DNA of 36,753 nt. Source: Candidatus Changshengia sp. GTDB taxonomy: Bacteria > Chloroflexota > Dormibacteria > Aeolococcales > Aeolococcaceae. Location: positions 4,926 through 41,678 of the forward strand of contig PLAK01000092.1 of NCBI GenBank assembly GCA_003134115.1, written 5' to 3'. The notes below the pieces were generated by a model. That model saw only the letters and a list, made by a program, of their open reading frames with translations. It ran no database searches and had not been told where the DNA came from. Positions 6,312 through 24,909 of this stretch are shown piece after piece. Each line of letters starts with the position of its first letter. Within the stretch, counting starts at the first letter, position 1. The position numbers were made by a program, and so were the translations under genes.

Positions 6312-8570
6312 GTGGCACCGCGTCCTCGGCAGTCCTCGCCGTCGGCCGTCCCAGAACCGGGGCCGGCTACGGCCGCGACCCCGCCACCATCGCCCGCCGG
6401 GCCGGCTCCATCGGCCGCGGCGCCGGTCGCGGGCCATCCGTGGCCGGGCCAGCACTTTCCGCTCGGTGCCCATTGGGACGGCAACGGCACCAACTTCGCG
6501 CTCTTCAGCGCCAACGCCGAGAGGGTGGAGCTGGTGCTGGTCAACCCGGACGGGAGCACACGGGAGATCTACGAGCTCTCGGATCGGACCGACCTGACCT
6601 GGCACGGCTACCTGCTCGGGGTCGGCCCGGGAACCCGCTACGGCTACCGGGTCCACGGCCCCTACGAGCCGGCCGCCGGCCGCCGCTTCAACCCCCGGAA
6701 GCTGCTCCTCGATCCGTACGCGCGGGCCCTGACCGGGGCGATCGAGTGGATGCCCGAGGTCTACGGCTACGACTGGGACCGGCGGATGACCGACGACGTC
6801 CGGAGCGAACTCGACTCCGCCGGCCACGTCCCGCTCTCGGTGGTGGTCGACAACCGCTTCGACTGGGCGGGGACGCCGCCTCCCCGCATCTCCTGGGCCG
6901 ACACCGTCGTCTACGAGACCCACGTCCGCGGCTTCACGATGCGCCATCCCAACGTGCCCGAGCACCTGCGCGGAACGTACGCCGGGCTCGGCCACCCCGC
7001 CGCCATCGGGCACCTCAAGGCGCTCGGCGTCACGGCCGTCGAGCTGATGCCGGTGCACGCGTTCATCGACTCGGGCCGTCTGCACCAGCTCGGCCTGCGC
7101 AACTACTGGGGCTACGACACCATCGGCTACTTCGCCCCCGAGGGCCGCTACGCGGCGGCGGGCGACCAGGGCGGCCAGGTCGTCGAGTTCAAGCGGATGG
7201 TGCGTTCCCTCCACGCCTCCGGGCTCGAGGTCTTCCTCGACGTCGTCTACAACCACACCGGCGAGGCCAACCGCCTCGGTCCGACGCTCTCCTTCCGGGG
7301 CATCGACAATCAGGCGTACTACTATCTCGACCCCCACGATCGTCGCCACTACTGGGACGTGACCGGGACGGGTAACACGCTCAACGCGGGCGCGCCTCAG
7401 ACGCTGCGGCTGATCATGGACTCGCTGCGCTACTGGGTCACCGAGATGCACGTCGACGGCTTTCGCTTCGACCTGGCATCGGTGCTCGCCCGCCAGTTCT
7501 ACGAGGTCAACAAGCTCGCCGCCTTCTTCGACATCATCCACCAGGACCCCGTGCTGGCCGAGGTGAAGCTGATCGCCGAACCCTGGGACATCGGGCCGGG
7601 CGGATACCAGGTCGGCAACTTCCCGGTGGGGTGGGCGGAGTGGAACGGCAAGTACCGCGACACGGTTCGCGATTACTGGCGCGGCGCTCCCATCGGCGTC
7701 GCCGACCTCGCCTACCGACTGACCGGGAGCAGCGACCTCTACGCGGACGACGGCCGCGGACCGAGCGCCAGCATGAATTTCGTGACCGCCCACGACGGCT
7801 TCACCCTGCGTGACCTGGTCTCCTACGAGCACAAGCGCAACCAGGCCAACGGCGAGGAGAACCGGGACGGCACCGACGACAACCGCTCCTGGAACTGCGG
7901 GGTCGAGGGCGCCACCGACGACGCCGAGGTGAACGAGGTGCGGCTGCGCCAGCAGCTCAACTTCATGGCCACCCTCCTGCTCTCCCAGGGCTGTCCGATG
8001 ATCGTCGCGGGGGACGAGATGGGCCGCACCCAGCAGGGGAACAACAACGCGTACTGCCAGGACAACGAGGTCTCCTGGATCGACTGGCAGCACGACGACC
8101 CGGGGCTGTTCCGTTTCACCCGCCGGCTGATCGCCCTGCGCGCCCAGCACCCGGCCCTCCGCCGCCAGCACTTCTTCACCGGCCGGATCGTGGGCGGAGG
8201 TCTGAAGGATGTTCGCTGGCTGCGACGCAACGGCGTGGAGATGACCGATGAGGACTGGGGCAGCCACGAACGCCAGTCGCTCGCGATGATCCTCGACGGA
8301 GGCCTGATCTCCGACCGGACGTCGACCGGGGAGCGAATCGTCGATGACACCCTGGCGGTGCTCCTGCACTCGTCCGGAGAGGCCTGTGACTGGGATCTGC
8401 CTCCCGGGACCTGGCAGGTGATCCTGGACACCGCCCAGCCGGACGAGGATCCCGGCACTCGTGGGGTCCGCACCCCGGAGCGTCTCCAGGTCGAGGGGCG
8501 GTCGCTGGTCGTCCTCCGGCTCAGCGAGCCCGCGACCGCGGGTGTCCCAGCGGCTGCGTCCGGGCGCTAG
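6312..8570 (+). CDS. glgX: Glycogen debranching enzyme (isoamylase type, GH13_11)
   Basis: This 752-residue enzyme cleaves alpha-1,6 branches of glycogen. A CBM48-like N-terminal domain (HFPLGAHWDGNGTNFALFS) precedes the barrel. Catalytic residues are Asp387 in GFRFDLA, Glu423 in AEPWD and Asp495 in TAHDGFT. A C-terminal beta domain follows, with the insert typical of GlgX. The frame is open far upstream, opposite malQ, but GTG 6312 is the only start between the malQ promoter region and the conserved domain. It leaves a ~40-residue Pro/Ala-rich N-terminal extension that may be partly untranslated. The dedA-like gene follows by 7 bases. Confidence 0.93.
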   Translation: MAPRPRQSSPSAVPEPGPATAATPPPSPAGPAPSAAAPVAGHPWPGQHFPLGAHWDGNGTNFALFSANAERVELVLVNPDGSTREIYELSDRTDLTWHGYLLGVGPGTRYGYRVHGPYEPAAGRRFNPRKLLLDPYARALTGAIEWMPEVYGYDWDRRMTDDVRSELDSAGHVPLSVVVDNRFDWAGTPPPRISWADTVVYETHVRGFTMRHPNVPEHLRGTYAGLGHPAAIGHLKALGVTAVELMPVHAFIDSGRLHQLGLRNYWGYDTIGYFAPEGRYAAAGDQGGQVVEFKRMVRSLHASGLEVFLDVVYNHTGEANRLGPTLSFRGIDNQAYYYLDPHDRRHYWDVTGTGNTLNAGAPQTLRLIMDSLRYWVTEMHVDGFRFDLASVLARQFYEVNKLAAFFDIIHQDPVLAEVKLIAEPWDIGPGGYQVGNFPVGWAEWNGKYRDTVRDYWRGAPIGVADLAYRLTGSSDLYADDGRGPSASMNFVTAHDGFTLRDLVSYEHKRNQANGEENRDGTDDNRSWNCGVEGATDDAEVNEVRLRQQLNFMATLLLSQGCPMIVAGDEMGRTQQGNNNAYCQDNEVSWIDWQHDDPGLFRFTRRLIALRAQHPALRRQHFFTGRIVGGGLKDVRWLRRNGVEMTDEDWGSHERQSLAMILDGGLISDRTSTGERIVDDTLAVLLHSSGEACDWDLPPGTWQVILDTAQPDEDPGTRGVRTPERLQVEGRSLVVLRLSEPATAGVPAAASGR

Positions 8571-8577
8571 TCCGACT

Positions 8578-9246
8578 GTGCTGTTGGCCTCGCTGACCGG
8601 GTTCGCGTCTGGATTTGTCCAGCATTGGGGCTACCTGGCGGTGTTCCTGCTCGCCGGGATCGAGAGCCTCTGCGTGCCCTTCCTTCCCGGCGAGACGGCG
8701 CTGCTCACCGCCGCCGCCCTCGCGGTGAAGCTGCACCTCGCCATTGGCGGGATCATCGCGGCGGCCGCGGCCGGCCCCATCGTCGGGGGCAGCCTTGGCT
8801 ATGCCGTCGGCTGGTGGGGGGGTTACCGCCTCCTGATCCGCTACGGCGCGCGCGTCGGCCTCGGCCAGCCCCAGGTCAAGGTGACCCGCTACCTCTTTCA
8901 GCGTGATGGGGGGAAGGTCGTCTTCCTCGGCCGGTTCGTCCTCGTGCTGCGCAGCTTCGCCGGGCTGCTGGCCGGCGCGGGCCGGATGCCGCCGCTCGCC
9001 TTCCTCTTCTTCAATGCGGCCGGCAGCGTGGTCTGGGCGACGGCCTACGGGCTCGCGGCCTACGCGGCGGGCAGCGCGCTCCTCGGCCTCAGCGGGTGGC
9101 TCGCGGCCGGCTTCGGCCTCGCGGCCGCCGCCATCGTGGTGGCCGGCCTGCTCCTCTTGCGCCGCCACTCCGCCCGTCTGGAAGCGCGGGCCGAAGCGGC
9201 CTTTCCAGGACCAATGGCCGGTTATCCGGGAGGTCTCCCCCTCTGA
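8578..9246 (+). CDS. DedA family (VTT domain) membrane protein
   Basis: This 222-residue integral membrane protein carries the DedA signature: FLPGETALL (Glu39) in the first re-entrant region, and GRFVLVLRSFAGLLAGAGRM with the conserved Arg pair in the second. Several hydrophobic helices follow, ending in a basic tail. DedA proteins act in phospholipid (undecaprenyl phosphate or phosphatidylethanolamine) flipping and membrane homeostasis. GTG 8578 gives family-typical length; the frame extends further upstream only inside glgX. It follows glgX by 7 bases and is probably cotranscribed. The lipid substrate is not predictable. Confidence 0.88.
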   Translation: MLLASLTGFASGFVQHWGYLAVFLLAGIESLCVPFLPGETALLTAAALAVKLHLAIGGIIAAAAAGPIVGGSLGYAVGWWGGYRLLIRYGARVGLGQPQVKVTRYLFQRDGGKVVFLGRFVLVLRSFAGLLAGAGRMPPLAFLFFNAAGSVVWATAYGLAAYAAGSALLGLSGWLAAGFGLAAAAIVVAGLLLLRRHSARLEARAEAAFPGPMAGYPGGLPL

Positions 9247-9325
9247 ATCGAGGTCCACGCCGGCGCCGTCCAGTTGCTGGCCCGAGCCCGGCGCGAGAGA
9301 CGCCCACGGGGATGCGGCGCCAGCG

Positions 9326-10186
9326 CTACGCGGTGCCGGGATGGATGAGGTCGGAGGAGGCCACGCGCATCAGCCCCGCCTCGTGCTCATCGGATTCGCG
9401 GTCCAGGTGCTCGATGCGGTCCTCCAGGGCACGTCTCTCAGCGGCATCCATGGGCGGAGCGGCGGGACCGGTCACGGCGCCCCCGACGGCGAGCGGCCCG
9501 AGCGCGCTGATCAGCCAGCGCCTCGCCACAGGGCCAGCGTGGTCACGGGACATGGTGAGCTCCTGGCCCCACCGCACCAGGTCGGGCGAACCCTCGACGA
9601 CCTTGTCTCGCTCGTCCATCTCGCAGAGCGACGAGACGGCGTCGATGCGAACGCCGACCCGCTCCGGCGAGTCCACGCGAATCACGGAGGCGTCGAGGAT
9701 TTCGAGGTCGCCGCGCACTCGGCGCCGGCCTCGAGCGCTCAGTGACTCCACCTCATGCCGGACCGCCTGACCGACCTCCTCGGTCACGTAGACGCGGCAC
9801 CGGTCAGGCTCGGAGAGGGAGACAGCGGCCTGCAGATGGGCGAACGCGTCGCGGGCGCACGACAGCACGTCCTGGCGGTTGAAGCCGGCGACCGCCACCG
9901 CCTCGGCATCGGTATCCCCAGTGGCTCCCGCGAGCGGCGACGCCGGCGAGGCGGCGCCGGGGACGCCGAGCTCCGGTTGAGGGTCCGGGATCTCCTCGGG
10001 ATTGGCGAGCGGGGTGCTCAACTCGAGCGTCGGGAGCTTCAGCTCGGGGAACCTGAGCTCCGGGAACTGCGGTTCCGGCAGTTCCGTCTCGGGGACGTCC
10101 ACGGAGGCGATTGTCGCGCCCGGGCGGGCGGGATCGCTGTGGCGGTCGGGAGGTGGCGTACGCGCCATCCCGCCCCTGCCTATCAT
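9326..10186 (-). CDS. Tim44/NTF2-like domain protein with PEL repeat
   Basis: This 286-residue protein has no signal peptide or clear membrane segment. Residues 33-57 are five tandem five-residue units of Glu/Thr-x-x-Leu/Phe-Pro type, followed by a Pro/Glu-rich linker to about residue 95. Residues ~100-225 resemble the Tim44-like/NTF2-like fold: an amphipathic helix (FNRQDVLSCARDAFAHLQAA), a YVTEEV segment and a closing RRWLISAL strand. The C-terminus (AERRALEDRIEHLDRES) may form a short coiled coil. ATG 10186 is used; ATG 10168, preceded by AGGGG, is an equal alternative. Function is unknown; family members bind lipids or act as membrane-associated scaffolds. Confidence 0.65.
   Translation of the reverse strand: MIGRGGMARTPPPDRHSDPARPGATIASVDVPETELPEPQFPELRFPELKLPTLELSTPLANPEEIPDPQPELGVPGAASPASPLAGATGDTDAEAVAVAGFNRQDVLSCARDAFAHLQAAVSLSEPDRCRVYVTEEVGQAVRHEVESLSARGRRRVRGDLEILDASVIRVDSPERVGVRIDAVSSLCEMDERDKVVEGSPDLVRWGQELTMSRDHAGPVARRWLISALGPLAVGGAVTGPAAPPMDAAERRALEDRIEHLDRESDEHEAGLMRVASSDLIHPGTA
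10016..10090. repeat. Five 15-bp degenerate tandem repeats
   Basis: A 75-base block made of five 15-bp units, on the plus strand of the form GGG-A-rich-codon-AGCTC, encodes the PEL pentapeptide array of the Tim44-like protein. The units are diverged but keep the period exactly. Confidence 0.7.
10181..10186 (+). promoter_or_regulatory. -10 element of the glucuronate operon
   Basis: TATCAT upstream of manD fits TANNNT and would place the transcript start near 10193. It overlaps the ATG of the divergent Tim44-like gene. No -35 box is evident. Confidence 0.4.
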
Positions 10187-10187
10187 G

Positions 10188-10201
10188 GGTCAGATCCGAC
10201 C
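10188..10201. promoter_or_regulatory. Candidate operator of the manD operon
   Basis: GGTCAGATCCGACC is a 14-bp near-perfect palindrome (12 of 14 positions symmetric) that spans the predicted transcript start just after the -10 element. The half-site GGTC/GACC recalls GntR-type operators, but no regulator of that family is in the window. Confidence 0.35.
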
Positions 10202-10223
10202 ATGAGGCGACAGGGGTGACAGT

Positions 10224-11444
10224 GTGAAGATCATCGACGCCAAGGTCATCGTCACGTGCCCGGGGCGCAACTTCGTGACCCTGAAGCTCACCACCGACGA
10301 GGGCATCACCGGGGTCGGCGATGCCACCCTCAACGGGCGCGAGCTCGCCGTGGCCAGCTACCTCACCGATCACGTCTGCCCGCTGCTCCTCGGACGGGAC
10401 GCCTCCCGCATCGAGGACACCTGGCAGTTTCTCTACAAGGGCGGCTACTGGCGCCGGGGCCCGGTCACCATGACCGCGATCGCGGCCGTCGACACGGCCC
10501 TCTGGGACATCAAGGGCAAGGTGGCGGGGCTGCCCGTGTACCAGCTGCTGGGCGGCCGGAGCCGCGACGGCGTCACCGTCTACGGGCACGCCAACGGCGA
10601 GACCGTGCCCGAGGTGCTCGACGAGGTGGCCCGTTTCCTGGAGCTCGGATACCGCGCGGTCCGCGTGCAGGTGGGCATCCAGGGGATCAGCTCGATCTAC
10701 GGGGTGAGCCCTGACACCGCCCACCGCGAGTCCGGGTACGTGCCCGCGGCCGCGACCACGGCCGAGGGTTCGGACTGGTCCACCGCCCGCTACCTGCATC
10801 AGATACCCGCGCTCTTCGAAGCGGTCCGGGAGCGCTTCGGTTTCGACTTTGCACTCCTCCACGACGCCCACCACCGGCTGACCCCGATCGAGGCCGCCCG
10901 GCTGGGGCGGCGGGTCGAGGAGTACCAGCTGTTCTGGCTCGAGGACCTGGTGCCGGCGGAGCTGCAGGAGGGCTTCCGGATCATCCGGCAGCACACCACG
11001 ACGCCGCTTGCCGTGGGGGAGGTGTTCAACTCCATCTGGGACTGCCAGCAGCTCATCACCGAGCAGCTCATCGACTACATCCGCGCCGACGTCGTCCACG
11101 CCGGCGGGATCACCCACCTCCGCCGCATCTTCCAGCTGGCCGACCTCTACCACGTCCGGAGCGGCTCCCACGGCGCCAACGATCTCTCCCCCGTCTGCCT
11201 CGCCGCCGCGCTGCACCTCGACATCTCCATCCCCAACTTCGGTATCCAGGAGTACATGCGGCACTCCGCGGAGACCGACGAGGTCTTCCCGCACTCCTAC
11301 CGCTTCGCCGACGGCTACCTGCACCCCGGCGAGGAGCCCGGCCTCGGGGTCGACATCGACGAGGGGCTGGCCGCGCGGTACCCATACCAGCGCGCCTACC
11401 TGCCGACCAACCGTCTGGTCGACGGCACGGTGCACAGCTGGTGA
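10224..11444 (+). CDS. manD: D-mannonate dehydratase (enolase superfamily)
   Basis: This 406-residue enzyme dehydrates D-mannonate to 2-keto-3-deoxy-D-gluconate. The sequence follows the ManD subgroup closely: [19 protein letters not shown], the Arg147/Tyr159 catalytic dyad, metal ligands Asp214, Glu240 and Glu266, and His216 and His316 in the barrel. It differs from the unrelated UxuA family that usually does this step. The GTG start is preceded by AGGGGTGA. It is the first gene of a four-gene set with kdgK (4-bp overlap), uxaC and uxuB, which supports a true catabolic mannonate role rather than one of the low-activity side members of the subgroup. Confidence 0.93.
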
Positions 11445-12523
11445 CGCCCCGCCTCGAGATTCCGCCCTCCGGAGCGCTGGACTTCCTCTCGCTCGGGGCG
11501 CTGGTGATCCGTCTGGATCCCGGTGACGTCCCCTTCCAGAAGGCCACCGAGTGCCGCATCCATGTGAGCGGTGCGGAGTACAACGTGGCCGCCAACCTGG
11601 CCAGCTGCTTCGGCCTGCAGACGGCGGTCGCCTCCGCCTGTGTCGACTATCCGATCGGCCAGCTCGTCGCCGAACGGGTGCGCGCCATGGGTGTCCGCGG
11701 CATCTACCGCTGGTCTCCGCACGACGGGGTGCGCGGTCCCAACATTGCCACCGTCTACAGCGATCGCGGCTTCGGCATCCGCCCGCCCCTCGTCTTCTAC
11801 AACCGGGCGGGCGAGGCCGCCGCCCTGCTCGGACCCGGTGACTTCGACTGGGCCAGGATATTCGGAGAGGGGGTGCGCTGGTTTCACTCGGGCGGGCTCT
11901 TCGCCGCGCTCTCCGAGTCGACCAGCGAGCTGATCATCGAGGGGATGCGCGCCGCCAGGGCGGCCGGCGCCGTGATCTCCTTCGACCTCAACTATCGGGA
12001 GAAGCTCTGGGCAACTCGCGGCGGCCGGCCGGAGGCGCAGGCGGTGATCGGCCGGATCGTGGAGAACGTGGACGTGCTGCTCGGCAACGAGGAGGACGTC
12101 CAGCAGGCTCTCGGCATCTCCGGCCCCGCGCCCGGCGCCGGGGGAGGCATGGAGGTGAAGGGCTTTGTGGGCCTGATGGAGCGGGTCCGCGAGCGGTACC
12201 CGAACCTGGCTGCGATGGCGACCACGCTGCGTGATGTCCGCTCCGCCAATCGCCACGTCTGGAGCGCCGTCGCCAGGGTCGGAGACGAGACCTTCGCGGC
12301 GCCCAGCACCGAGCTGGATGTCTATGACCGGGTCGGCGGTGGCGATGGTTTCGCGGCGGGCTTCATCTACGGTCTGCTCGCGAGCGAGCCGCCCGAGCAG
12401 GCGCTGCGTCTCGGATGGGCGCACGGCGCCCTCGTCACCGGATACCCGGGGGACACCACCATGGCGACGCTCGCCCAGGTGCGCGCCGTCGCGGCGGGGG
12501 GCGCCGCGCGGATCCAGCGATAG
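11441..12523 (+). CDS. kdgK: 2-keto-3-deoxygluconate kinase (PfkB family)
   Basis: This 360-residue PfkB-fold sugar kinase phosphorylates KDG to KDPG for Entner-Doudoroff cleavage. It has the N-terminal [11 protein letters not shown] sugar-binding motif, [10 protein letters not shown], and an anion-hole/catalytic motif [10 protein letters not shown] with Asp302; the usual GAGD is GGGD here. The GTG start overlaps the manD stop (GTGA, 11441-11444). KDG specificity is inferred from the manD-uxaC-uxuB context and overall similarity. A KDPG aldolase is not in the window. Confidence 0.88.
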
Positions 12524-12558
12524 GGGGCGGGGCCCCCGCCACCCAGGGAGGAGCTTCT

Positions 12559-13974
12559 GTGGCCAGGATCGATCTCCACCCGGATCGCCTGCTCCCGGTC
12601 GAACCGGCCCGGCGAGAGGTGGCCCGGCGCCTCTACGAGACGGTGCGAGACCTGCCGATCGTCTCGCCGCACGGGCACGTGGACCCGCTCCTCCTCGAGC
12701 AAGACCGTCCCTTCGACAATCCGGCGGCGCTGTTCATCACTCCGGATCACTACGTGACCCGCATGCTCCACGCCCACGGCGTGCCCCTCACCGAGCTGGG
12801 CATCCCGCGCCGCGATGGGAAGGGGGGCGCCGCCGATCCCCGCGAGATCTGGCGACGGCTGTGCGAGCGGTGGGACGTCTTCCGTGGCACCCCGTCCCGC
12901 TACTGGCTGGAGGCGGCGCTGGCCCAGGTGTTCGACGTCCCCATCCGCCCATCCGCCGCCGACGCCGACCTCATCTACGACCGCCTCATGGAGCGCTTCG
13001 CACTCCCCGAGTACCGGCCGCGGGCCCTCTTCGACCGCTTCGGGGTGGAGGTGCTGGCGACCACCGACGACCCCTGCGGCGATCTCTCCGCCCACCGCAG
13101 CCTGCGCGACGACCCGTCCTGGAAGGGGAGGGTGGTACCGACATTCCGCCCCGACGCCTACCTCGACCCGTCGCTGCCGGGCTGGGCCGGTCGGGTTGAG
13201 CAGCTCGGCAGCTCCGCGGGCATCGACACCGCCTCATACGGCGGCTACATCCAGGCCCTGGAGGCCCGGCGTGCCTTCTTCATCTCGCACGGGGCCACCG
13301 CCACCGACCAGGGCCCTCCCGACGCCGGCAGCGTGGTCCTCACGCCCAACGAGGCGGCGCAGCTCTTCGCGAGAGCCCTGCGGGGCACGGCCAGCCCGGA
13401 GGAGCGGAGAGCGTTCCGGCAGCACATGCTCTGTGAGATGGCCCGGATGTCCTGCGACGACGGGCTGGTCATGCAGCTGCACCCCGGCGTCTTCCGCAAC
13501 CACCACCCGCCGACCTGGCGGGACTTCGGCACCGACGTCGGCGCCGACATTCCGGTCGCGATCGAGTTCACCCGCGCTCTGCAGCCCCTGCTCGGCCTCT
13601 ACGGAACGCACCCCAACTTCCGGATGGTCCTCTTCACCCTCGACGAGACCACCTGGTCGCGAGAGCTGGCGCCGCTCGCCGGTTTCTACCCGTCGGTCTA
13701 CCTCGGAGCTCCGTGGTGGTTCCTCGACACGCCGGACGCGATGCTTCGTTTCCGAGCGGCGGTCACCGACACGGCCGGCTTCGCCAAGACGAGCGGATTC
13801 GTCGACGACACCCGAGCCTTCTGCTCCATCCCGGTGCGCCACGACACGGCGCGACGCATCGACTGTGCCTACCTGAGCCGGCTGGTGGTGGAGCATCGGC
13901 TGGACGAGGACGAGGCGGTGGAGACCGCCAAGGACCTGGCTCACCGGCTTCCGCGCGAGGTCTTCCGGTTTTGA
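12559..13974 (+). CDS. uxaC: Glucuronate (uronate) isomerase
   Basis: This 471-residue amidohydrolase-superfamily enzyme converts D-glucuronate to D-fructuronate (or galacturonate to tagaturonate). The metal-binding motif SPHGHVDP has His38 and His40, and length and end-to-end similarity fit UxaC. GTG 12559 follows a strong Shine-Dalgarno sequence (AGGGAGGAG), which settles the start within a frame open back to 12415. The stop overlaps the TTG start of uxuB. With manD as dehydratase the glucuronate branch is the natural reading, since galacturonate would need altronate enzymes. Confidence 0.93.
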   Translation: MARIDLHPDRLLPVEPARREVARRLYETVRDLPIVSPHGHVDPLLLEQDRPFDNPAALFITPDHYVTRMLHAHGVPLTELGIPRRDGKGGAADPREIWRRLCERWDVFRGTPSRYWLEAALAQVFDVPIRPSAADADLIYDRLMERFALPEYRPRALFDRFGVEVLATTDDPCGDLSAHRSLRDDPSWKGRVVPTFRPDAYLDPSLPGWAGRVEQLGSSAGIDTASYGGYIQALEARRAFFISHGATATDQGPPDAGSVVLTPNEAAQLFARALRGTASPEERRAFRQHMLCEMARMSCDDGLVMQLHPGVFRNHHPPTWRDFGTDVGADIPVAIEFTRALQPLLGLYGTHPNFRMVLFTLDETTWSRELAPLAGFYPSVYLGAPWWFLDTPDAMLRFRAAVTDTAGFAKTSGFVDDTRAFCSIPVRHDTARRIDCAYLSRLVVEHRLDEDEAVETAKDLAHRLPREVFRF

Positions 13975-15365
13975 CCCGGCTCAACCGCGGGAGCTGGCCG
14001 TCGGCCGGTCCGCCCCGGCCGGTCCGCGCCGTGCACCTCGGCCTGGGTGCGTTTCATCGCTCGCACCAGGCCTGGTACACGGAGCATGCCGCGGACGCGG
14101 AGCCGTGGGGGATCGCCGCCTTCACCGGGCGGAACCCCGGAGCGGCGCAGCGGCTGCAGGCGCAGGACTGCCTCTACACGCTGGTGGAGCGCGGCCCCGA
14201 GCGCGACCGATCCGAGGTGGTCGCCAGCATCAGCGCCGCGCACGACGGTGACGATGCAGGAGCCTGGGCGACGTACCTCGCATCGCCGCAGGTGGCCCTG
14301 GTGACGATGACGGTCACGGAGGCCGGATACCACCTGGATGGCGCTGGGCACCTCGATCTCGGTCACCCGGAGGTCGCCGCCGACATCGAGCGTCTGCGCG
14401 TGCCGAGCGCCCAGCCGGTGCCCCCGGTCCGCACCATGCCGGGGCGGCTCGTGGCCGGCCTCGCGGCCCGCCGGATCGCGGACGGCGGACCGATCACCAT
14501 CGTCCCCTGCGACAACCTCCTGGGCAACGGTGACGCGACCCGAACCGTGGTCCTCGAGATGTGCCGCGCGGTGCAGCCCCACCTGGACGCCTGGATCTCG
14601 ACCAGCGTCTCGTTCGCCTCCACGGTGGTGGACCGGATTACACCTGCCACCACGGCAGGCGACCTGGTGTCGGCGGAGCGCGCCACCGGCCGTGAGGACC
14701 GCTGCGCCGTGGTGACCGAGCCCTACAGCGAGTGGGTCCTCTCGGGAGACTTCCCGGCCGGGCGGCCCGCGTGGGAGAGTGCCGGCGCCCGCTTCGTGAG
14801 CGACGTCAAGCCGTTTGCGGAGCGGAAGCTGTGGCTCCTGAACGGTGGCCACTCGCTGCTCGCCTACGCCGGCTCCATGCTCGGCCACGCCACCGTCAGC
14901 GAGGCCCTGGCCGACCGGCGGTGCCGGGAGTGGCTGGAGGAGTGGTGGGATGGCGTCACCATCATCCTCGGGCTCCCCGAGGACGAGGTGGCCGTCTACC
15001 GCACGGCGCTGCTCGCTCGCTGGAGCAACCCGCGGATGACTCACACCCTGAGCCTCATCGCCCGGGACGGATCGCAGAAGCTCATCCAGCGGGTGATCCC
15101 GGTGATCCATCGCTACCGGGAGGCGGGAGAGCCCGCACCACCCGGGGCCGGGCTGATCATCGGCGCCTGGCTTGCCCATCTCCGCGGCTCCCACGTCGAG
15201 ATCAGCGACCCCCGCGGCGGGGAGCTCATCACCCTGGCCGCGGGCGAGCGACACGGCGCGGCACGCTCCATCCTCGATGCTCTCGAGCCTGGTCTGGGCG
15301 CGAACAGCGCACTGGTGGCGCAGGTCGCCGCAACCTGCCTGGAACTGGAGAGCATGGGTGCGTGA
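13971..15365 (+). CDS. uxuB: Fructuronate reductase (mannitol dehydrogenase family)
   Basis: This 464-residue NAD(H)-dependent polyol dehydrogenase reduces D-fructuronate to D-mannonate. The N-terminal VHLGLGAFHRSHQAWY motif and the catalytic segment KLWLLNGGHS (Lys286, Asn291, His294) are family hallmarks. The TTG start at 13971 overlaps the uxaC TGA (TTGA); the upstream open frame is antisense-like shadow. Mannitol, arabinitol and altronate enzymes share this fold; fructuronate is assigned from the uxaC and manD neighbours. Confidence 0.88.
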   Translation: MTRLNRGSWPSAGPPRPVRAVHLGLGAFHRSHQAWYTEHAADAEPWGIAAFTGRNPGAAQRLQAQDCLYTLVERGPERDRSEVVASISAAHDGDDAGAWATYLASPQVALVTMTVTEAGYHLDGAGHLDLGHPEVAADIERLRVPSAQPVPPVRTMPGRLVAGLAARRIADGGPITIVPCDNLLGNGDATRTVVLEMCRAVQPHLDAWISTSVSFASTVVDRITPATTAGDLVSAERATGREDRCAVVTEPYSEWVLSGDFPAGRPAWESAGARFVSDVKPFAERKLWLLNGGHSLLAYAGSMLGHATVSEALADRRCREWLEEWWDGVTIILGLPEDEVAVYRTALLARWSNPRMTHTLSLIARDGSQKLIQRVIPVIHRYREAGEPAPPGAGLIIGAWLAHLRGSHVEISDPRGGELITLAAGERHGAARSILDALEPGLGANSALVAQVAATCLELESMGA

Positions 15366-15399
15366 ACCGCCAGCGCTCCGATTCCGTCCCGACGCGCTG

Positions 15400-15405
15400 T
15401 ATGAT
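15400..15405 (+). promoter_or_regulatory. -10 element of xylAB
   Basis: TATGAT lies in the 112-base gap between uxuB and xylA, with TGTATG repeated 8 bases apart (15398 and 15406). A transcript would start near 15412, giving a ~65-base leader. No clear -35 box is seen. Confidence 0.4.
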
Positions 15406-15422
15406 TGTATGTGACCCGAACG

Positions 15423-15436
15423 AACGGTAATCCGTT
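15423..15436. promoter_or_regulatory. Candidate xylA operator
   Basis: AACGG-TAAT-CCGTT is a 5-bp-arm inverted repeat about 11 bases after the predicted start of transcription, a position suited to a repressor. The ROK regulator encoded at 18181-19389 is the obvious candidate to bind it. Confidence 0.35.
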
Positions 15437-15477
15437 GCCCACGTTGGACGACATGACGATTGCTGAGGGAGGAACTC

Positions 15478-16632
15478 ATGGTTGAGCCGAGCCGCGAAGA
15501 CCTCTTCACGTTCGGGCTGTGGACGGTGGGCTGGCAAGGTGTCGATGTCTTCGGCACCGCCGTGCGCGAACCGCTCGACCCGGTGGTGGCGGTGACCCGG
15601 CTGGCCGAGCTGGGGGCCTACGGGGTCACCTTCCACGACAACGACGTCTTCCCCTTCGACGCCACGCCGGCCGAGAAGAGCCACGCCATCGGACGGCTGC
15701 GTCAGGCTGTCGAGGGCGCCGGCCTGGTGATCCCCATGGTGACCACCAACCTCTTCTCGCACCCGGTCTTCCGCGATGGTGGCTTCACCGCCAACGACCG
15801 AGCGGTGCGCCGCTTCGCGCTCCGCAAGGTGCTGGACAACCTCGATCTCGCCGCTGAGCTGGGGGCGGGAATCGTGGTCTTCTGGGGCGGGCGCGATGGC
15901 GCCGAGTCGGGTGCCGCAAAGGATGTCCGGGCCGCGCTCGATCGCTACAAGGAGGCGTTCGACATCCTCACCGGCTACGTCCTGGAACAGGGCTACAAGC
16001 TCCGCTTTGCCCTCGAGCCCAAGCCGAACGAGCCGCGCGGAGACATCCTCCTCCCCACCATCGGTCACGCGCTGGCCTTCATCAACGAGCTCGAGCACCC
16101 AGAGATGGTCGGGCTCAACCCGGAGGTCGGGCACGAGGAGATGTCCGGGCTCAACTTCGCGCACGGGCTGGCTCAGGCGCTCTGGCACGGGAAGCTCTTC
16201 CACGTCGACCTCAACGGCCAGAACGGGCCGCGGTTCGACCAGGACCTCCGCTTCGGGGCCGGCAACGCCCGAGGCGCCTTCTGGACGGTCGACATCCTCG
16301 AATCGGGTGGCTACCAGGGACCTCGTCACTTCGACTTCAAGCCACCCCGCACCGAGGACATCGACGGGGTGTGGGAGTCCGCCGCCGGGTGCATGCGCAA
16401 CTACCTGATCCTGCGTGACCGGGTCCGCGCCTTCCGCGCCGATCCCGAGGTGCTCGCGGCATTGTCGGCGGCCCGTCTCGACGAGCTGGCCCAGGCCACC
16501 CTCGCACCCGGCGAGACGCTGACCTCGCTGCGCGGCGAGGCATTCGACCCCGACGCCGCCGCCCTCCGGGGCCTGGCATTCGAGAAGCTGGACCAGCTCG
16601 CCCTGGACTATCTCTACGGGGTGCGCAGGTAG
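15478..16632 (+). CDS. xylA: D-xylose isomerase
   Basis: This 384-residue TIM-barrel enzyme isomerises D-xylose to D-xylulose. Catalytic His53 sits in [11 protein letters not shown], the metal/catalytic segment is [11 protein letters not shown], and GLNPEVGHE and FHVDLNGQ carry further metal ligands. Length and sequence fit the short class I enzymes of Actinomycetota-like bacteria. ATG 15478 follows GAGGGAGGA at proper spacing; an upstream TTG at 15460 is rejected. xylB follows by 27 bases. Confidence 0.96.
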
Positions 16633-16659
16633 CCTCATGGGACAGTTGGAGGTCCGCCG

Positions 16660-18120
16660 GTGAGTACGAGCGCGATCGTCGGCATCGATATCGGGACATC
16701 GTCGGCCAAGGGCGTCGCCGTCGATCCGGCATCCGGAAGGGTGCTGGCCGGCGCGGAATCCATGTACCCCCTCAGCTCTCCCCACCCCGGCTGGATGGAG
16801 CAGCACCCGCAAGAGTGGCTGACGGCAACACAGCTGGTGCTCGACAGCCTGAAGGTCGACGTGACGGAGGTCCTCGGCGTCGGTTTCTCCGGCCAGATGC
16901 ATGGGCTGGTCTGTCTCGACGCGGCCGGCGAGGTCATCCGTCCGGCGATCCTCTGGAACGACCAGCGCTCCGCGCCACAGTGTGCCGCGCTCGAGTCCGG
17001 GGGCGGACGCGATCGCCTGGTGAGGCTCACCGGAAACCGTGCCCTGCCGGGCTTCACCGCCCCCAAGCTGCTCTGGATGCGGGAGATGGAGCCGGCCGCC
17101 TACGCTCGCATCCGCCAGATCTCCCTGCCCAAGGACTACGTGCGCGACCGCCTCACCGGAGGACATCGCAGCGATGTCGCCGACGCCTCGGGCACGCTCC
17201 TCCTCGACGTCAGCGCGCGCCGCTGGAGCGAGGAGCTGCTCGCGGAGCTGGGGATCCCGCTGTCATGGCTGCCCGATCTCGCCGAGAGTGGCGATGCCGT
17301 CGGCACGATCGAGGGTGTTCCGGTGGCCGCCGGGGCAGGCGACCAGGCCGCCGCGGCGGTGGGCGGCGGTATCACCGGCCCCGGCCCTCTGTCCATCGTC
17401 CTCGGAACCTCCGGCGTGGTGCTCGCCGCCACGGATCGTTTCCTGGCGGATGGAGAAGGCCGGGTCCACGCCTTCTGCCACGCAGCACCGGACCGCTGGC
17501 TGGTGATGGGCGTGATGCTGTCGGCCGCCGGGTCGTTGGCCTGGTTCCACGACACCCTGCTCCCGGGCGTGGACTACGACGCGATGCTCGCGGAGGCCGA
17601 GACCGTGCCGCCCGGGTGTGAAGGCCTGACCTTCCTCCCCTACCTGGCCGGCGAGCGGACGCCTCACTTCGACTCCGACGCACGGGGCGCCTTCTGCGGT
17701 CTGAGCGTCACCCACGGGCGCGGAGCGCTGACCCGCGCGGTCCTGGAGGGGGTCGCCTTCGCCCTGCGCGACTGCCTCGACACCGTGCGCAATGTCGGGG
17801 CCACCGCCGAACGCGGTCGCGTTTCGGGGGGAGGCTCGAGGAGCCGGCTCTGGCTCGAGACGGTTGCCAGCGTCCTCGAGTTGCCCATCGAGGTGATGGC
17901 CACCGACCAGGGCTCGGCGTTTGGCGCCGCGCTGCTGGGCGGCGTCGCCGCCGGTGTCTACCGTGACGTCGACCAGGCCGCTGCCGCCTGTGTGCGCGTG
18001 ACCGACGTCATCGACCCCGTACCCGCATGGATCGAGCCCTACCGAGAGGCGCGCGCTCGTTTCCGCGATTACTACCCTGCCCTCCGCTCGGTCAGCAGGC
18101 GAGGTACGGGCCCGGTCTGA
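16660..18120 (+). CDS. xylB: Xylulokinase
   Basis: This 486-residue FGGY kinase phosphorylates D-xylulose to D-xylulose-5-phosphate, feeding the pentose phosphate pathway. It shows the N-terminal GIDIGTSSAKG phosphate loop, the GFSGQMHGLV substrate motif, the catalytic base Asp228 in AGAGDQAAAAVG, and GSAFGAALLG near the C-terminus. GTG 16660 is preceded by TTGGAGG. It ends 60 bases before the convergent ROK repressor; this gap holds only weak GC-rich hairpin potential and no T-run. Confidence 0.94.
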   Translation: MSTSAIVGIDIGTSSAKGVAVDPASGRVLAGAESMYPLSSPHPGWMEQHPQEWLTATQLVLDSLKVDVTEVLGVGFSGQMHGLVCLDAAGEVIRPAILWNDQRSAPQCAALESGGGRDRLVRLTGNRALPGFTAPKLLWMREMEPAAYARIRQISLPKDYVRDRLTGGHRSDVADASGTLLLDVSARRWSEELLAELGIPLSWLPDLAESGDAVGTIEGVPVAAGAGDQAAAAVGGGITGPGPLSIVLGTSGVVLAATDRFLADGEGRVHAFCHAAPDRWLVMGVMLSAAGSLAWFHDTLLPGVDYDAMLAEAETVPPGCEGLTFLPYLAGERTPHFDSDARGAFCGLSVTHGRGALTRAVLEGVAFALRDCLDTVRNVGATAERGRVSGGGSRSRLWLETVASVLELPIEVMATDQGSAFGAALLGGVAAGVYRDVDQAAAACVRVTDVIDPVPAWIEPYREARARFRDYYPALRSVSRRGTGPV

Positions 18121-18180: not shown

Positions 18181-19389
18181 TTACGCCGAACTCTCTTCGA
18201 CAGCCGCAGCCAGGGTCGGATCATCCAGGATCCGCGTCAGCGCCAGCTCCGCCGCACCCTGCAGGGTGGCTTCCGCCCCGAGCTGCGCCGGCCTGATCTC
18301 CACCGTCTCGAGAGCCGGCGCCATGACCCGCACCCGCAGCTCCGCCTGGACGATGTGCTCCACCAGGGGCCACATGGTGCTGAGGTACCCGCCGAGCACG
18401 ACCCGTTGCGGGTTGAAGGTGTTGATCAGGCCGCCAAGACCCGCCCCGAGCCAGCGGCCAACCTCCCCCACCGCCTGGAGGGCGACCGGATCACCCCAGG
18501 CCGCCTCTCTCAGCAGCCGGGCGACCGCCTCTGGCTGGTACCCCTTCTCGGTGCTCCCGCCCCGCCGGAGCAGCGCCGGGCCCCCAATCTCCGTCTCCCA
18601 GCACCCGATCGCTCCACATCGACAGCGCACCCCCATCGGGTTCACCTGGACGTGCCCCACCTCTCCGGCACAGCCGGCGGCCCCCACCAGCGGGCGGCCT
18701 TCGATGACAAGACCACCACCCACCCCCTCATCGCTGGAGACGTAGATGAGGCGGCTCGCCCCGACACCAGCCCCCCACGTGTACTCGGCCACGGCCCCCA
18801 GGTCCGCATCGTTGGCGATGAGAACCGGGAGGCCGGACCCGACCCGTTCTGCGATGAGGTCGCCCAGCCGGACGTCCCGCCATCCCAGGTTCGGGGCGAA
18901 GTGCACCAGACCGTCGGCTCGGCGGACGACCGCCGGAAGGGCTATTCCCAGGCCGGAGATCCAGCAACGGGCAGGGATCGAGGCCTGAGCGGACTGGATC
19001 AGCTCCAGGATGTCCTCGACGGTCTGCTCGAAAGCCAGGCGGCGCGGCCGATGGGCGACGCGATCGAGGTGGAGGATCCGGCCCCCCAGCCCGACCACGG
19101 CAACGGAGAGGGAGTTGACGGCGATGTCGGCGGTGATGGCCACGGCGCCCTCGGGATTGGGACGGACCACCAGCGAAGGACGCCCGGGCGACCCCAGGCG
19201 GGCGCTGTCGCCGGCCAGCACCAGACCACGGGCGCAGAGGTCCGCCACCAGCTCACCGATCGTGCTCCGGGTCATCCCCAGAGCGCCGCCGATATCGGAC
19301 CGGGACATTGCCCCTGACTGATGGAGGAGTCGGAGCAGAAGGCTCAGGTTATGGCGGCGGACCGATTCCGGGGAGGCCACGGGACTCAT
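18181..19389 (-). CDS. ROK family transcriptional repressor (XylR/NagC type)
   Basis: This 402-residue regulator has a winged helix-turn-helix at residues ~15-75 (MSRSDIGGALGMTRSTIGEL), then an actin-like sugar-binding ROK domain. The zinc site is RCRCGAIGCWE with the upstream GEVGH histidine. It is the last gene of the minus-strand transporter operon and faces xylAB, the usual setting of xylose repressors. It probably represses xylAB and its own operon in the absence of xylose; the glucuronate operon could also be under its control. The ligand is inferred from context. Confidence 0.85.
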   Translation of the reverse strand: MSPVASPESVRRHNLSLLLRLLHQSGAMSRSDIGGALGMTRSTIGELVADLCARGLVLAGDSARLGSPGRPSLVVRPNPEGAVAITADIAVNSLSVAVVGLGGRILHLDRVAHRPRRLAFEQTVEDILELIQSAQASIPARCWISGLGIALPAVVRRADGLVHFAPNLGWRDVRLGDLIAERVGSGLPVLIANDADLGAVAEYTWGAGVGASRLIYVSSDEGVGGGLVIEGRPLVGAAGCAGEVGHVQVNPMGVRCRCGAIGCWETEIGGPALLRRGGSTEKGYQPEAVARLLREAAWGDPVALQAVGEVGRWLGAGLGGLINTFNPQRVVLGGYLSTMWPLVEHIVQAELRVRVMAPALETVEIRPAQLGAEATLQGAAELALTRILDDPTLAAAVEESSA

Positions 19390-19495
19390 GTGTCACCACC
19401 AACCCGCCCTGGGCTGGCCTCCCGCAGGGCGTGAAAAGCACCTCCGGGCCGCCGGCTCGGCGGCTCCGGAGGCGCATCACCGCCATCCATGGGCC

Positions 19496-20875
19496 TCATG
19501 CCCTGGAGCGCGTGCCCCCGCGGGAGAGGACATCGATGGTCCCCGCCGCCAGCAGCACCACGGCGATGAGAATGTCGACCCACTCGGATGACACTCCCAT
19601 GAGCAGGAGGCCGTTGTAGATGCCGCCGATGATCAGGCCCCCCAGGACCCCATGGATGGTCTTGCCGCGGCCTCCGAAGAGGCTGGTGCCGCCGATGACG
19701 GCGGCGGCCACCGCGAGCAGCACGTAGCTGTTCGAGGACTTGATGATGTTGGTGGTGAGGAACACCTGCCACGAGGCGAAGAGGATGCCCGCGATCCCGG
19801 CGGTCAGCGCCGCCAGGACAAAGCACCAGGTCCGGATCGAGGGCAGGCTGACGCCCGCTCGGCGCGCCGCCTCCGGGTTGCCGCCGATGGCATAGACGTA
19901 GCGACCGAACCGGGTCCGCTGGAGCAGCATGGTCCAGATGAAGAGCACGGCGAGGACGATCACGATGATGTAGGGGAGTCCCTCGATGACCCCGAAGTGT
20001 GCCCGGTTCACGTTGCAGAGGCCGACGAGCACCACCCCCGCCACCGCGACGCCCACGATCTTGATCGCGGTGAAGCTGGGCGGCGGGGCCACCAGACCAC
20101 GACGCCGCCGGCTGGCGTCTCCGAACCACCACCACGCGGCCAAGATGACCACGACCACCGCCAGCAGGATCCAGCTGACCGTGGGGCTGAAGTACCCCCA
20201 GAAGATGTTGTAGATCTGGACCTGAGCCGGGACCGTGACATTCTTGAGGGAGATCGGCTGGCCGTTGAGGACGATGATGCAAACCCCCTCGAGGATCAGC
20301 CATCCACCCAGGGTGACGATGAACGACGGCATCTTGAGGCGGGCCACCATGCTGCCCTGGATGAGGCCGACACCTGCGCAGATGAGCAGGGTGACGCCGA
20401 TCGCCAGCCACGCCGGGAAGGCGAGGCCATGCGGACAGAGCGCGCAACTGGCCGCCCCGGACGGCTGGACGAGCTCGACCACCACGACAGAGCCCAGGCC
20501 CATGACCAGACCGGTGGAGAGGTCGATCTCACCGAGCAGCAGGGCAAAGATCTCAGCCATCGCCAGCAGGATGTAGATGCTGCTCTGCTCGAAGATGTTG
20601 ACCAGGTTCTGGGGTGACAGGAAGTTGCCGTTGGCGATCTGGAAGCCGACGCCGACGATGACGAGGCCCAGGACCACGGGCAGGACCCCGCTCTCGCCGC
20701 CCCGCACCCTCTGCCACCAGACGTGCAGGTACTGGCCCATGGACTGGGCCACGATCTCCGGCGGGACTTCTCCGACCGCGGCCGCGGCAGTCAGGTCGAC
20801 AGCGGCCGCTGCGGGGTCACTCGATGAAGTGCCCGCCATGGGGCCGGTCAGCGGGTCACTATCGATCCGGGCCAT
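19496..20875 (-). CDS. CUT2 sugar ABC transporter permease, second copy (XylH-like)
   Basis: This 459-residue membrane protein with about ten to twelve hydrophobic segments contains the CUT2 permease motifs GEIDLSTG and GRYVYAIGGNPEAARRAGV, and near the C-terminus GGTSLFGGRGKTIHGVLGG. The N-terminal ~50 residues are polar and shared in outline with the upstream paralogue (PPEIVAQSMGQYL). ATG 20875 has AGGG at a 6-base spacing; a GTG at 20878 is adjacent. It has exactly the same number of codons as its neighbour, from which it probably arose by tandem duplication. The two should form a heterodimeric channel. Confidence 0.88.
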   Translation of the reverse strand: MARIDSDPLTGPMAGTSSSDPAAAAVDLTAAAAVGEVPPEIVAQSMGQYLHVWWQRVRGGESGVLPVVLGLVIVGVGFQIANGNFLSPQNLVNIFEQSSIYILLAMAEIFALLLGEIDLSTGLVMGLGSVVVVELVQPSGAASCALCPHGLAFPAWLAIGVTLLICAGVGLIQGSMVARLKMPSFIVTLGGWLILEGVCIIVLNGQPISLKNVTVPAQVQIYNIFWGYFSPTVSWILLAVVVVILAAWWWFGDASRRRRGLVAPPPSFTAIKIVGVAVAGVVLVGLCNVNRAHFGVIEGLPYIIVIVLAVLFIWTMLLQRTRFGRYVYAIGGNPEAARRAGVSLPSIRTWCFVLAALTAGIAGILFASWQVFLTTNIIKSSNSYVLLAVAAAVIGGTSLFGGRGKTIHGVLGGLIIGGIYNGLLLMGVSSEWVDILIAVVLLAAGTIDVLSRGGTRSRA

Positions 20876-20910
20876 CACTCACCCTGACATGTTCAGATAG
20901 ATGCAGATTC

Positions 20911-22290
20911 TCAGACACGGACCACGCTCCCCGTCCTGGCCCCACGCCGCGAGAGGACGTCGACGAGGACGGCAGCCAGCAGGACTCCGCCTGGCAGGAT
21001 GTATTCGAGTGGGATCGACAGCGACCCCAGGTTCATCAGCGAGACTCCGTAGGCGATGCCGCCGATGAGGAGCCCGCCCAGGACACCGTGGATCGGCTTC
21101 CCCCGGCCCCCGAAGAGGCTGGTGCCGCCGATGACGGAGGCGGCCACCGAGTAGAGGACGAGCTGACCGGGGTCGCCGACGTTGGTGCTGTACTGACCGT
21201 AGTAGAAGGAGCCGAGCAGGATGCCCGCGAACCCAGCGGTGGCCGAGCAGAGCACGAAGCACCAGGTGCGGATCGCGGGCAGGCGAACGCCGGCCCGGCG
21301 CGCCGCCTCAGGATTGCCACCGATGGCGTAAACGTAGCGGCCGAAGCGGGTCGCCTGGAGAAGCACGGTCCAGAGACCCAGCAACACGATCACGACCGGG
21401 ATCACCCAGGGAAGACCCTCGATGGTCGCGAAGGCGCCGCCCCGGTTGACGGTGCAGATGATCAGCACCACGACCCCGACCACGGCCATGAGCCCGATCT
21501 TGATGGCGGTCAGGCTCGCCGGCGGGGCGACCAGGCCGGAACGGCGCCGGGCCGACGCGCGCAGCCACATCATCGTGCCGAACCCCACGACCACCACCGC
21601 CAGGATCGCCCAGCTGACCACCGGATCGATGTTTCCCTGGACCAGGTTGTAGAAGACGCTCTGGTTGGGATCCGTAGGGCTGACTGAGAGTGACCCGTCG
21701 GCACCCCCCAGGATGACGACCAGCATCCCCGTGAAGAGCAGCTGGCCGGCCAGGGTCACGACGAACGCGGGGATCCTGAGTCGCGCAACCAGGGTGCCCT
21801 GGAGCCCTCCGATGACACCGCAGCAGACCAGGCTGGTGAGGATCGCCAACCACCACGGCCAGTTGGGGCTCGGCTGCTGGACCAGCTTGTAGGCGATGGT
21901 CCCGCCCATGAGCGCCACGGCGCCGATGGAGAGGTCCAGCTCGCCGAGCAGCAGGACCGCGATCTCCCCCATCGCGAGCACCATGTAGACCGTGCTCAAG
22001 CCGAAGATGTAGACGAGGTTGCTGGGCCGCAGGTAGGCGTTCTCCGGGGTCAGGAGCTCGAATGCGATGGCCACGATGACCATCGCGACGAGAACGGGCA
22101 GCAGCCCGCTGTCGCCACTCTTGAGCTTCTGCCACCAGCCCCGGAGATACTCGCCCAGCGACTGGGCCAGGATCTCGAGAGGGACGTCGGCGACGGCCCC
22201 GGTGGCCGCGGTCAGGTCGACGTCTTGAGGGACCTCAGCGGCTTTCTCGCCTGGAGTGCCGGACTTGAGGTCGCCCTGGATGCCGGTCAC
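20911..22290 (-). CDS. CUT2 sugar ABC transporter permease, first copy (XylH-like)
   Basis: This 459-residue polytopic permease carries GELDLSIG, GRYVYAIGGNPEAARRAGV and GGTSLFGGRGKPIHGVLGG. The GTG start at 22290 follows AAGGAGG and lies 4 bases after the ATPase stop. It is clearly paralogous to the permease at 19496-20875 over its full length, including the N-terminal PLEILAQSLGEYL segment, but most of the residues in periplasm-facing loops differ. XylH is the closest well-known family member; exact sugar specificity rests on the binding protein and the neighbouring xylAB. Confidence 0.88.
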   Translation of the reverse strand: MTGIQGDLKSGTPGEKAAEVPQDVDLTAATGAVADVPLEILAQSLGEYLRGWWQKLKSGDSGLLPVLVAMVIVAIAFELLTPENAYLRPSNLVYIFGLSTVYMVLAMGEIAVLLLGELDLSIGAVALMGGTIAYKLVQQPSPNWPWWLAILTSLVCCGVIGGLQGTLVARLRIPAFVVTLAGQLLFTGMLVVILGGADGSLSVSPTDPNQSVFYNLVQGNIDPVVSWAILAVVVVGFGTMMWLRASARRRSGLVAPPASLTAIKIGLMAVVGVVVLIICTVNRGGAFATIEGLPWVIPVVIVLLGLWTVLLQATRFGRYVYAIGGNPEAARRAGVRLPAIRTWCFVLCSATAGFAGILLGSFYYGQYSTNVGDPGQLVLYSVAASVIGGTSLFGGRGKPIHGVLGGLLIGGIAYGVSLMNLGSLSIPLEYILPGGVLLAAVLVDVLSRRGARTGSVVRV

Positions 22291-22294
22291 GGCC

Positions 22295-23122
22295 TCAGGC
22301 CTCCTTCCCAACGGGAACTTCACCCGGCTGCTCGAGCGGCCGTCCACGCGAGCCCCCGGTGGTCATGTACTCCACAACGCTCTGGCGGTCAAAGCCAGAG
22401 GCCGGTCCCTGGGCCACCATCCGTCCGAGGTGAAGCACCGCCAGCCGGTCCGCCACCTCGAAGCAGTCGTTGAGGTTGTGGGTGATCACCATCACCGCCA
22501 GGCCCCGGTCCCGCAGCCGCATGACCAGGTCCAGGACCATCCGGGTCTGAACCACGCCGAGGGCGGCGGTGGGCTCGTCCAAGAGCACCACCTTGGAGTT
22601 CCACATCACCGCCTTGGCGACGGCGACCGACTGGCGCTGGCCTCCTGAGAGTGAGGCCACCGGCTGTCGAATCGAGCGCACCGAGGTGACTCGCAGACCG
22701 CTCAGGGTCTCGCCCGCGGAGCGCTCCATGCTGTCTTCGTCGAGCATGCCGCGGCGCAACCGCTCGCGACCCAGGAACATGTTCTGGACGATATCCAGGT
22801 TATCGGCCAGAGCCAGGTCCTGATAGACCGTCTCGATACCCAGCGCGGCGGCGTCGCGGGCGCCGCGGATGTGCACCGGCTGCCCCTCGAAATAGATCTG
22901 ACCGTGGTCCGGCTGGTGCACCCCGGCGATGCAGCGCGTGAGCACCGACTTGCCCGCCCCGTTGTCTCCGCACAGACCAGTCACCTGCCCGGCCGGCAGA
23001 TCCAGGTCCACGCCGTACAGCGCCTGGACGGGACCGAAGTGCTTGTCGATCCCCCGTAGCTTGAGGAGCGGCTCCGCCGCGGCCGGCTGTGGGGGGGGGG
23101 CAGGTTGGTTCTGTTCACTCAT
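22295..23122 (-). CDS. CUT2 sugar ABC transporter ATPase, single domain
   Basis: This 275-residue protein has one nucleotide-binding domain: Walker A GDNGAGKSV (residues 52-60), signature LSGGQRQ, Walker B VVLLDEPTAALG and H-loop ITHN. Enterobacterial XylG and RbsA have two fused domains; this is the half-size FrcA-like form. A Pro-rich N-terminus (QPAPPPQP) is encoded by a run of ten C. It sits between the binding-protein and permease genes and energises the transporter. ATG 23122 has only a weak ribosome-binding site. Confidence 0.9.
   Translation of the reverse strand: MSEQNQPAPPPQPAAAEPLLKLRGIDKHFGPVQALYGVDLDLPAGQVTGLCGDNGAGKSVLTRCIAGVHQPDHGQIYFEGQPVHIRGARDAAALGIETVYQDLALADNLDIVQNMFLGRERLRRGMLDEDSMERSAGETLSGLRVTSVRSIRQPVASLSGGQRQSVAVAKAVMWNSKVVLLDEPTAALGVVQTRMVLDLVMRLRDRGLAVMVITHNLNDCFEVADRLAVLHLGRMVAQGPASGFDRQSVVEYMTTGGSRGRPLEQPGEVPVGKEA
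23091..23100. repeat. Ten-base homopolymer (G on +, C on coding strand)
   Basis: A run of ten identical bases falls in codons 8-11 of the transporter ATPase gene. Length change would frameshift the gene right after its start. Confidence 0.85.
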
Positions 23123-23193
23123 CTCATTGACCTAGATCTGCCGTCAGGTTGCGGCGCGCCGGGTTCCTCCCCGGGGCGGCGACGAGAGGTGAG

Positions 23194-23223
23194 ATCCGGG
23201 CCGCCCAGCGGGGCGGCCCGGAT
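23194..23223. terminator. Perfect 13-bp hairpin between binding-protein and ATPase genes
   Basis: Arms 23194-23206 and 23211-23223 are perfectly complementary (13 bp, mostly GC) around a 4-base loop. It lies in the 144-base gap after the binding-protein gene, within the operon. There is no T-run on the minus strand, so it is better read as an mRNA-stabilising or attenuating hairpin that raises binding-protein output over the membrane subunits than as a full terminator. Confidence 0.75.
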
Positions 23224-23266
23224 TCGTCACCGAGGAGGATTCTTGTGGGAACGCTCCGTCAGACGA

Positions 23267-24574: not shown

Positions 24575-24651
24575 CTGAGTCTTGCCCTCCACGCAGCGGA
24601 CGATTTCGTTCGCGACGCCGGCCCCGTGGGGGACAGACGCCGCGCCAGCCA

Positions 24652-24677
24652 CATCACCTTCTCAACGCCTAGTGATG
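24652..24677. promoter_or_regulatory. Candidate operator of the transporter operon
   Basis: CATCAC (24652-24657) and GTGATG (24672-24677) form a perfect 6-bp inverted repeat with a 14-base spacer. It lies just downstream of the predicted transcript start of the minus-strand transporter operon, as a repressor site would. Confidence 0.35.
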
Positions 24678-24717: not shown

Positions 24718-24732
24718 CGGCTCGAACTAAAA

Positions 24733-24750
24733 ATCACCCTAATGGGCGAT
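24733..24750 (-). terminator. Terminator-like hairpin, copy B
   Basis: On the minus strand ATCGCCC-ATTA-GGGTGAT folds into a hairpin (one mismatch) followed by TTTT. It is the second of two related units 44 bases apart, each preceded by a conserved GTGGTGGAT(A/G)AGC segment. It would stop transcription coming from tRNA-Gln just before the transporter promoter. Confidence 0.55.
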
Positions 24751-24776
24751 GCCCCGCTCATCCACCACGGCAAAAG

Positions 24777-24794
24777 ATCACCCCAACGGGGGAT
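24777..24794 (-). terminator. Terminator-like hairpin, copy A
   Basis: On the minus strand ATCCCCC-GTTG-GGGTGAT forms a hairpin followed by CTTTTG. It is the first of the two repeated units downstream of tRNA-Gln and could end the tRNA transcript. Confidence 0.5.
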
Positions 24795-24909
24795 GTCCGG
24801 CTTATCCACCACCCCGGAAACGCGCCGTTCGCCGCGATCGGAATCAGGGCGAGGACCCTCCGCCGGTGGGTGCCCGCCGCCGGCCAGGTCCCACCAGCCG
24901 GGGCCTGAG

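Follow-up and report, generated by a model that had tools for sequence, protein, structure and literature searches.

A Tim44-like gene with a short period-5 Pro-Glu array in a Dormibacterota genome

The window, by which we mean the whole stretch of 36,753 nucleotides analysed here, belongs to a Dormibacterota MAG whose 2.26-Mb assembly consists of 183 contigs and is 83% complete. The gene under study lies on the minus strand at 9326..10186, where the original prediction had placed it, and encodes 286 amino acids when read from the ATG at 10186. On one side lies a gene for a DedA/VTT-domain membrane protein (8461..9246, plus strand, assigned by Pfam, its real start probably later), and on the other a divergent gene for an enzyme of the mandelate racemase/enolase family (10224..11444, plus strand, also by Pfam). 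The intervals 10224-18120 and 18181-24652 read, ORF by ORF, as a sugar-acid/xylose gene cluster: the MR_MLE enolase and a PfkB kinase are identified by Pfam, and uronate isomerase-, mannonate oxidoreductase-, xylose isomerase- and xylulokinase-like ORFs, a ROK-type regulator and a sugar ABC transporter were recognised by eye. A 44-base unit, present in 1.9 copies, occupies 24729-24812, near a tRNA-Gln gene (24909-24981).

The sense frame of the gene has a G+C content of 77/52/86% at the three codon positions, the pattern expected for a coding frame, and contains no stop and no frameshift. Where the window has its ATG at 10186, each of the three aligned congeners has ATC, and we therefore consider the ATG at 10168, which would give 280 amino acids, the more likely start; there, two of the three have GTG, the one in genome G003 being put out of frame by a one-base insertion. 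The 15-base period described below can also be read as pentads in an antisense ORF of 154 amino acids (9755-10219, plus strand), which we reject as a real gene, since the Tim44 match and the coding-type G+C content belong to the sense frame. The ORF at 9326-10186 is a genuine Tim44-like gene, and it is the only Tim44 match in its incomplete genome.

The Tim44/NTF2-like domain that had been read from the sequence, with a profile search proposed as its check, is confirmed by Pfam: PF04280 matches residues 100-228 (9503..9889, minus strand) with 33.8 bits against a cutoff of 29.6 and an E-value of 4e-8. Profile-profile comparison with hhalign, which sets the profile of the subfamily described below against one built from 22 further Tim44 domains of the class, gives a probability of 98.6 and an E-value of 9e-16; an hmmsearch of PDB sequences with the subfamily profile returns no match. 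The AlphaFold model, built with 28 aligned sequences as input, has a pLDDT of 86-97 per block over residues 101-240 and predicts a long helix at residues 248-281 (9344..9445, minus strand), within the C-terminal tail common to the subfamily. The best Foldseek match of this model is the C-terminal domain of human Tim44 (2cw9, E 2e-7), which also comes first in VIA-align (Z 12.8, rmsd 3.7, 150 aligned). Within 1 Z of it, hence tied, are ARC6, the yeast TIM23 complex and mitoribosome chains, which we take to be mL45; VirB8 and other NTF2-like folds come next, within about 2 Z of 2cw9. With such ties, the fold by itself does not single out Tim44. The further claim that the protein has neither signal peptide nor membrane segment holds for the latter, no stretch of 19 residues having the hydropathy usual for a span (the maximum Kyte-Doolittle mean is 1.42, at residues 225-243); a signal peptide is not evident, as judged by eye only.

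Strong matches to the protein are found in 6 of the 110 genomes of the class: the window genome (G000), G003, G062, G064, G072 and G101. Any match at all is found in 19 of the 110, and the 13 genomes outside the subfamily have a best E-value of 6e-7 or weaker. The proteins of G062, G064, G072 and G101 have the core and the C-terminal tail in common with the window protein, and RGRRRVHG-, W-x-Q-D- and RWIIT-like motifs recur in five of the six members. The window copy retains the conserved residues of the subfamily at 31-38% identity to its relatives in other families of the class. The Pfam Tim44 model, applied to the five other members, stays below its cutoff for L075 (20.6 bits) and L076 (19.5 bits) and gives no match for L077, L078 and L014. 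When the phylum was searched with the subfamily profile, in 400 genomes drawn evenly from a larger group, strong matches appeared only in the window genome and G101, and weak hits in six more genomes (E 2e-10 to 2e-5) that are apparently general Tim44 domains; the matches listed did not include the remaining four known members. A contig search confirmed a single relative, apparently that of G003. No relative was found in plasmids, nor in viral contigs, where one degenerate pattern returned 17 stretches, none of them confirmed; an origin of the gene in a phage or plasmid thus finds no support. The literature search returned no paper with both "Dormibacter" and "Tim44", and no title or abstract opening on such a family: this small Tim44-like subfamily is apparently undescribed.

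The neighbours of its members vary, so that genomic context gives no pointer to function. The G062 relative (L076) has a GH2 glycosidase as neighbour, according to Pfam, and the relative in G072 (L077), a genome of the same genus, has a similar ORF; both genes lie about 55 bases before this GH2-type ORF on the same strand, the Pfam assignment being that of the G062 ORF. A glutamine synthetase and a YdeI/OmdA-type gene are found near the G064 relative, and luciferase-like and PNPOx-like genes near that of G101 (L078); this last relative adjoins the luciferase-like gene and an ORF whose weak likeness to TIR_2 stays under the Pfam cutoff.

Membership in the same fold family raises the question of whether the protein serves translocation as an adaptor, in the manner of mitochondrial Tim44 or bacterial TimA. 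Yeast Tim44, as described in PMC4749553, binds the import motor through its N-terminal domain and the channel through its C-terminal one, and helices A1/A2, which recruit the protein to the membrane, precede the core. Proteins with the PF04280 domain, such as human and yeast Tim44 and mL45, resemble the window protein in core profile, in predicted fold, and in having an N-terminal part followed by the folded Tim44 domain. The window protein, however, is bacterial and apparently cytosolic, is missing from many relatives, has an extra C-terminal helix, and lacks predicted membrane helices before its core: AlphaFold predicts no helix before residue 104, a low-confidence part of the model, that could serve as A1/A2. 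The model of the putative adaptor TimA (NCBIfam NF033779) shows a weak profile similarity over residues 98-205, at 14.3 bits against a cutoff of 80. With no membrane segment, and with a strong match missing from 104 of the 110 class genomes, a role as translocation adaptor seems very unlikely. The class also has larger Tim44-like proteins, among them L003, L005 and L012, whose Tim44 core is homologous to that of the window protein. Judged by eye, they differ from it in an N-terminal segment that is Gly-rich and hydrophobic and in a cysteine motif, CPNCGAP, that is likely a zinc ribbon; both are lacking in the window protein.

The N-terminal part contains a period-5 Pro-Glu array at residues 31-55 (10022..10096, minus strand), which reads VPETE, LPEPQ, FPELR, FPELK, LPTLE and is predicted to be disordered. 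The original prediction had described it as five exact-period Glu-x-x-Leu/Phe-Pro units, encoded by 15-bp repeats and located in the N-terminal half. A period-5 array does exist, but only four units fit E-x-x-[L/F]-P exactly (E33 to P52), and the fifth breaks the pattern; the DNA has a 15-base period, but its units have diverged to 7-12 common bases out of 15, and Tandem Repeats Finder at its default threshold reports no array at this site. It spans about 25 residues, not the full N-terminal half. Hydrophobic-Pro pairs recur in it five times in succession at spacing 5, an arrangement that 0 of 100,000 shuffles of residues 1-100 reproduced. Five prolines alone at this spacing occur in about 1% of such shuffles, because these 100 residues are proline-rich. 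The lag-5 autocorrelation over residues 29-72, a stretch picked after the array was seen, has a p-value of 0.00085. The pattern exceeds chance, yet it is short and diverged.

This excess over chance, together with the conservation in G003 of four of the five array prolines, is what speaks for the earlier proposal of regularly spaced docking on the array by a partner that is itself repeated or sits in the membrane. The extended rod imagined for that purpose finds no support: the array is short, the first 100 residues have a pLDDT of 42-61 per ten-residue block and no predicted secondary structure, and the base changes that separate the arrays of the window and G003 fall 4/3/3 on codon positions 1/2/3, with no position bias. 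Such low AlphaFold confidence suits disorder better, and the N-terminal tail, as modelled, is probably disordered rather than a rod. Over its 25 or so residues, the array is identical between the two copies at 19 of 25. The survey of repeat number in relatives that had been suggested finds the array in G003, so that it is not absent from all orthologues, but it is lineage-specific. The complete, distant relative in G064 (L075) starts just before the core, at an ATG at 1469, and lacks the array; the one in G101 (L078) lacks it too, but its start is unclear, as the frame has no usual start codon ahead of the core; contig ends truncate those in G062 and G072. All 44 of the other Tim44-hit ORFs examined have at most two hydrophobic-Pro units in a row, a sample that takes in G062, G064, G072 and G101 and leaves out the window, G003, six Tim44 matches without a locus and L088, whose match is broken by stops. 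Two congeners, the window genome and G003, are the only ones known to have the array, and a docking site of the proposed kind is improbable.

Similar units occur elsewhere: PMC7072810 and PMC3149072 describe period-5 Pro-Glu units in the PEVK region of periaxin and in plant PELPK proteins, respectively. These plant proteins and the PEVK-type regions of periaxin and titin share Pro-Glu-hydrophobic units of period 5 with the array, but they belong to animals and plants, and the array has four to five units; we regard this as likeness, not homology. Compared by eye in one register with the periaxin pentad motif [AGLMV]-[CEPQRS]-[DEKL]-[AILMPV]-[AEHKPQR], as given in PMC7072810, one of the five array units fits, namely LPEPQ. 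A role of the 15-bp units at the DNA level, needed by the divergent enolase-family gene, was also considered and rejected, since genomes G006 and G001 lack the stretch and keep the enolase gene.

Comparison within the genus reveals a locus in turnover. The G003 copy keeps the array and the tail but has lost, in frame, 114 codons corresponding to residues 123-236 (9479..9820, minus strand, edges to a codon or so), that is, most of the Tim44 core, and lacks 21 further codons. Both large gaps preserve the frame, and 143 amino acids remain, in which Pfam matches no family; the one-base insertion already mentioned lies near the 5' end, so that the start of this copy must differ. In G006 the stretch corresponding to 9282..10135 is absent (edges to a few bases; by eye, the join shows a short match, GCCA), and the DedA gene and the enolase-family gene, the latter 97.2% identical to that of the window, adjoin. 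The gene is likewise absent from G001, where DedA and enolase adjoin; the sequence upstream of enolase holds other ORFs in G005, G004 and G038. In total, two of the seven genus genomes searched carry the gene, in assemblies 67-89% complete in which some misses may be gaps: the protein is matched nowhere in the assemblies of G001, G002, G004, G005 and G006 (67-80% complete). The tree of the enolase gene puts G006 outside the pair formed by the window genome and G003 with modest support (87 in IQ-TREE, 0.906 in FastTree), and a loss in G006 and a gain in the pair both fit this placement. G038, a genome of another family of the order, has an enolase-family gene (L048, G038:C226) with about 97% DNA identity to those of G001 and G002, the latter partial, which points to transfer or bin contamination.

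The deletion in G003 suggests one further reading, which we hold to be unlikely: the selected part would be the Pro-Glu tail and the C-terminal helix, and the core would have been cut out in one lineage, a Tim44-family gene thus becoming a small disordered-tail-plus-helix protein.

In the 122 ungapped codons of the window and G003 copies, with the codons outside ungapped blocks left out, we count 14.5 synonymous and 20.5 non-synonymous changes: a synonymous share of 41%, against 25% expected under a neutral spectrum (one-sided p 0.04). The NG86 estimates over 135 codons are dN 0.104 and dS 0.208; for comparison, those of the enolase gene are 0.015 and 0.166. Changes at codon positions 1/2/3 number 7/9/11 in residues 14-79 and 3/5/7 in the tail. 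These counts suggest that constraint is weak at best, and the array taken alone shows no sign of it. Near-neutral decay appears possible, dN/dS being only mildly below 1 and dN exceeding dS in residues 97-124 (0.092 against 0.051 over 26 codons).

The gene might therefore be a decaying or newly arrived neutral passenger without maintained function, and the array low-complexity drift in a G+C-rich frame. The weakness of purifying selection and the unbiased array changes agree with this reading, as do the scarcity of the gene in the genus, the deleted core of G003 and the loci of G006 and G001 without the gene. It fits less well with the intact window copy, which keeps the conserved residues of the subfamily at 31-38% identity, and with a frame kept through both large G003 gaps; we consider the passenger a serious possibility, though a doubtful one.

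With modest confidence, we lean towards a cytosolic, single-copy Tim44/NTF2-like accessory protein with a disordered, lineage-specific tail, encoded by a dispensable and fast-evolving gene. The pocket of the core and the helix would hold a binding partner, which could be a small ligand, a second protein or the membrane face. We infer such a binding role by analogy, because other NTF2-like and Tim44-like adaptors of the fold family bind partners. The acidic hydrophobic-Pro-Glu tail would act as a flexible spacer or a weak short linear motif, and it would have arisen in one genus, perhaps through imperfect duplication of 15 bp.

If this reading is right, the general picture is unchanged, and the gene looks like an ordinary accessory gene. 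It would nevertheless add to the bacterial Tim44-like proteins a small, patchily kept and soluble branch, little covered in the literature that we found, and would provide a case in which, among the species of one genus, a short, periodic and disordered tail arises and a folded core is lost.
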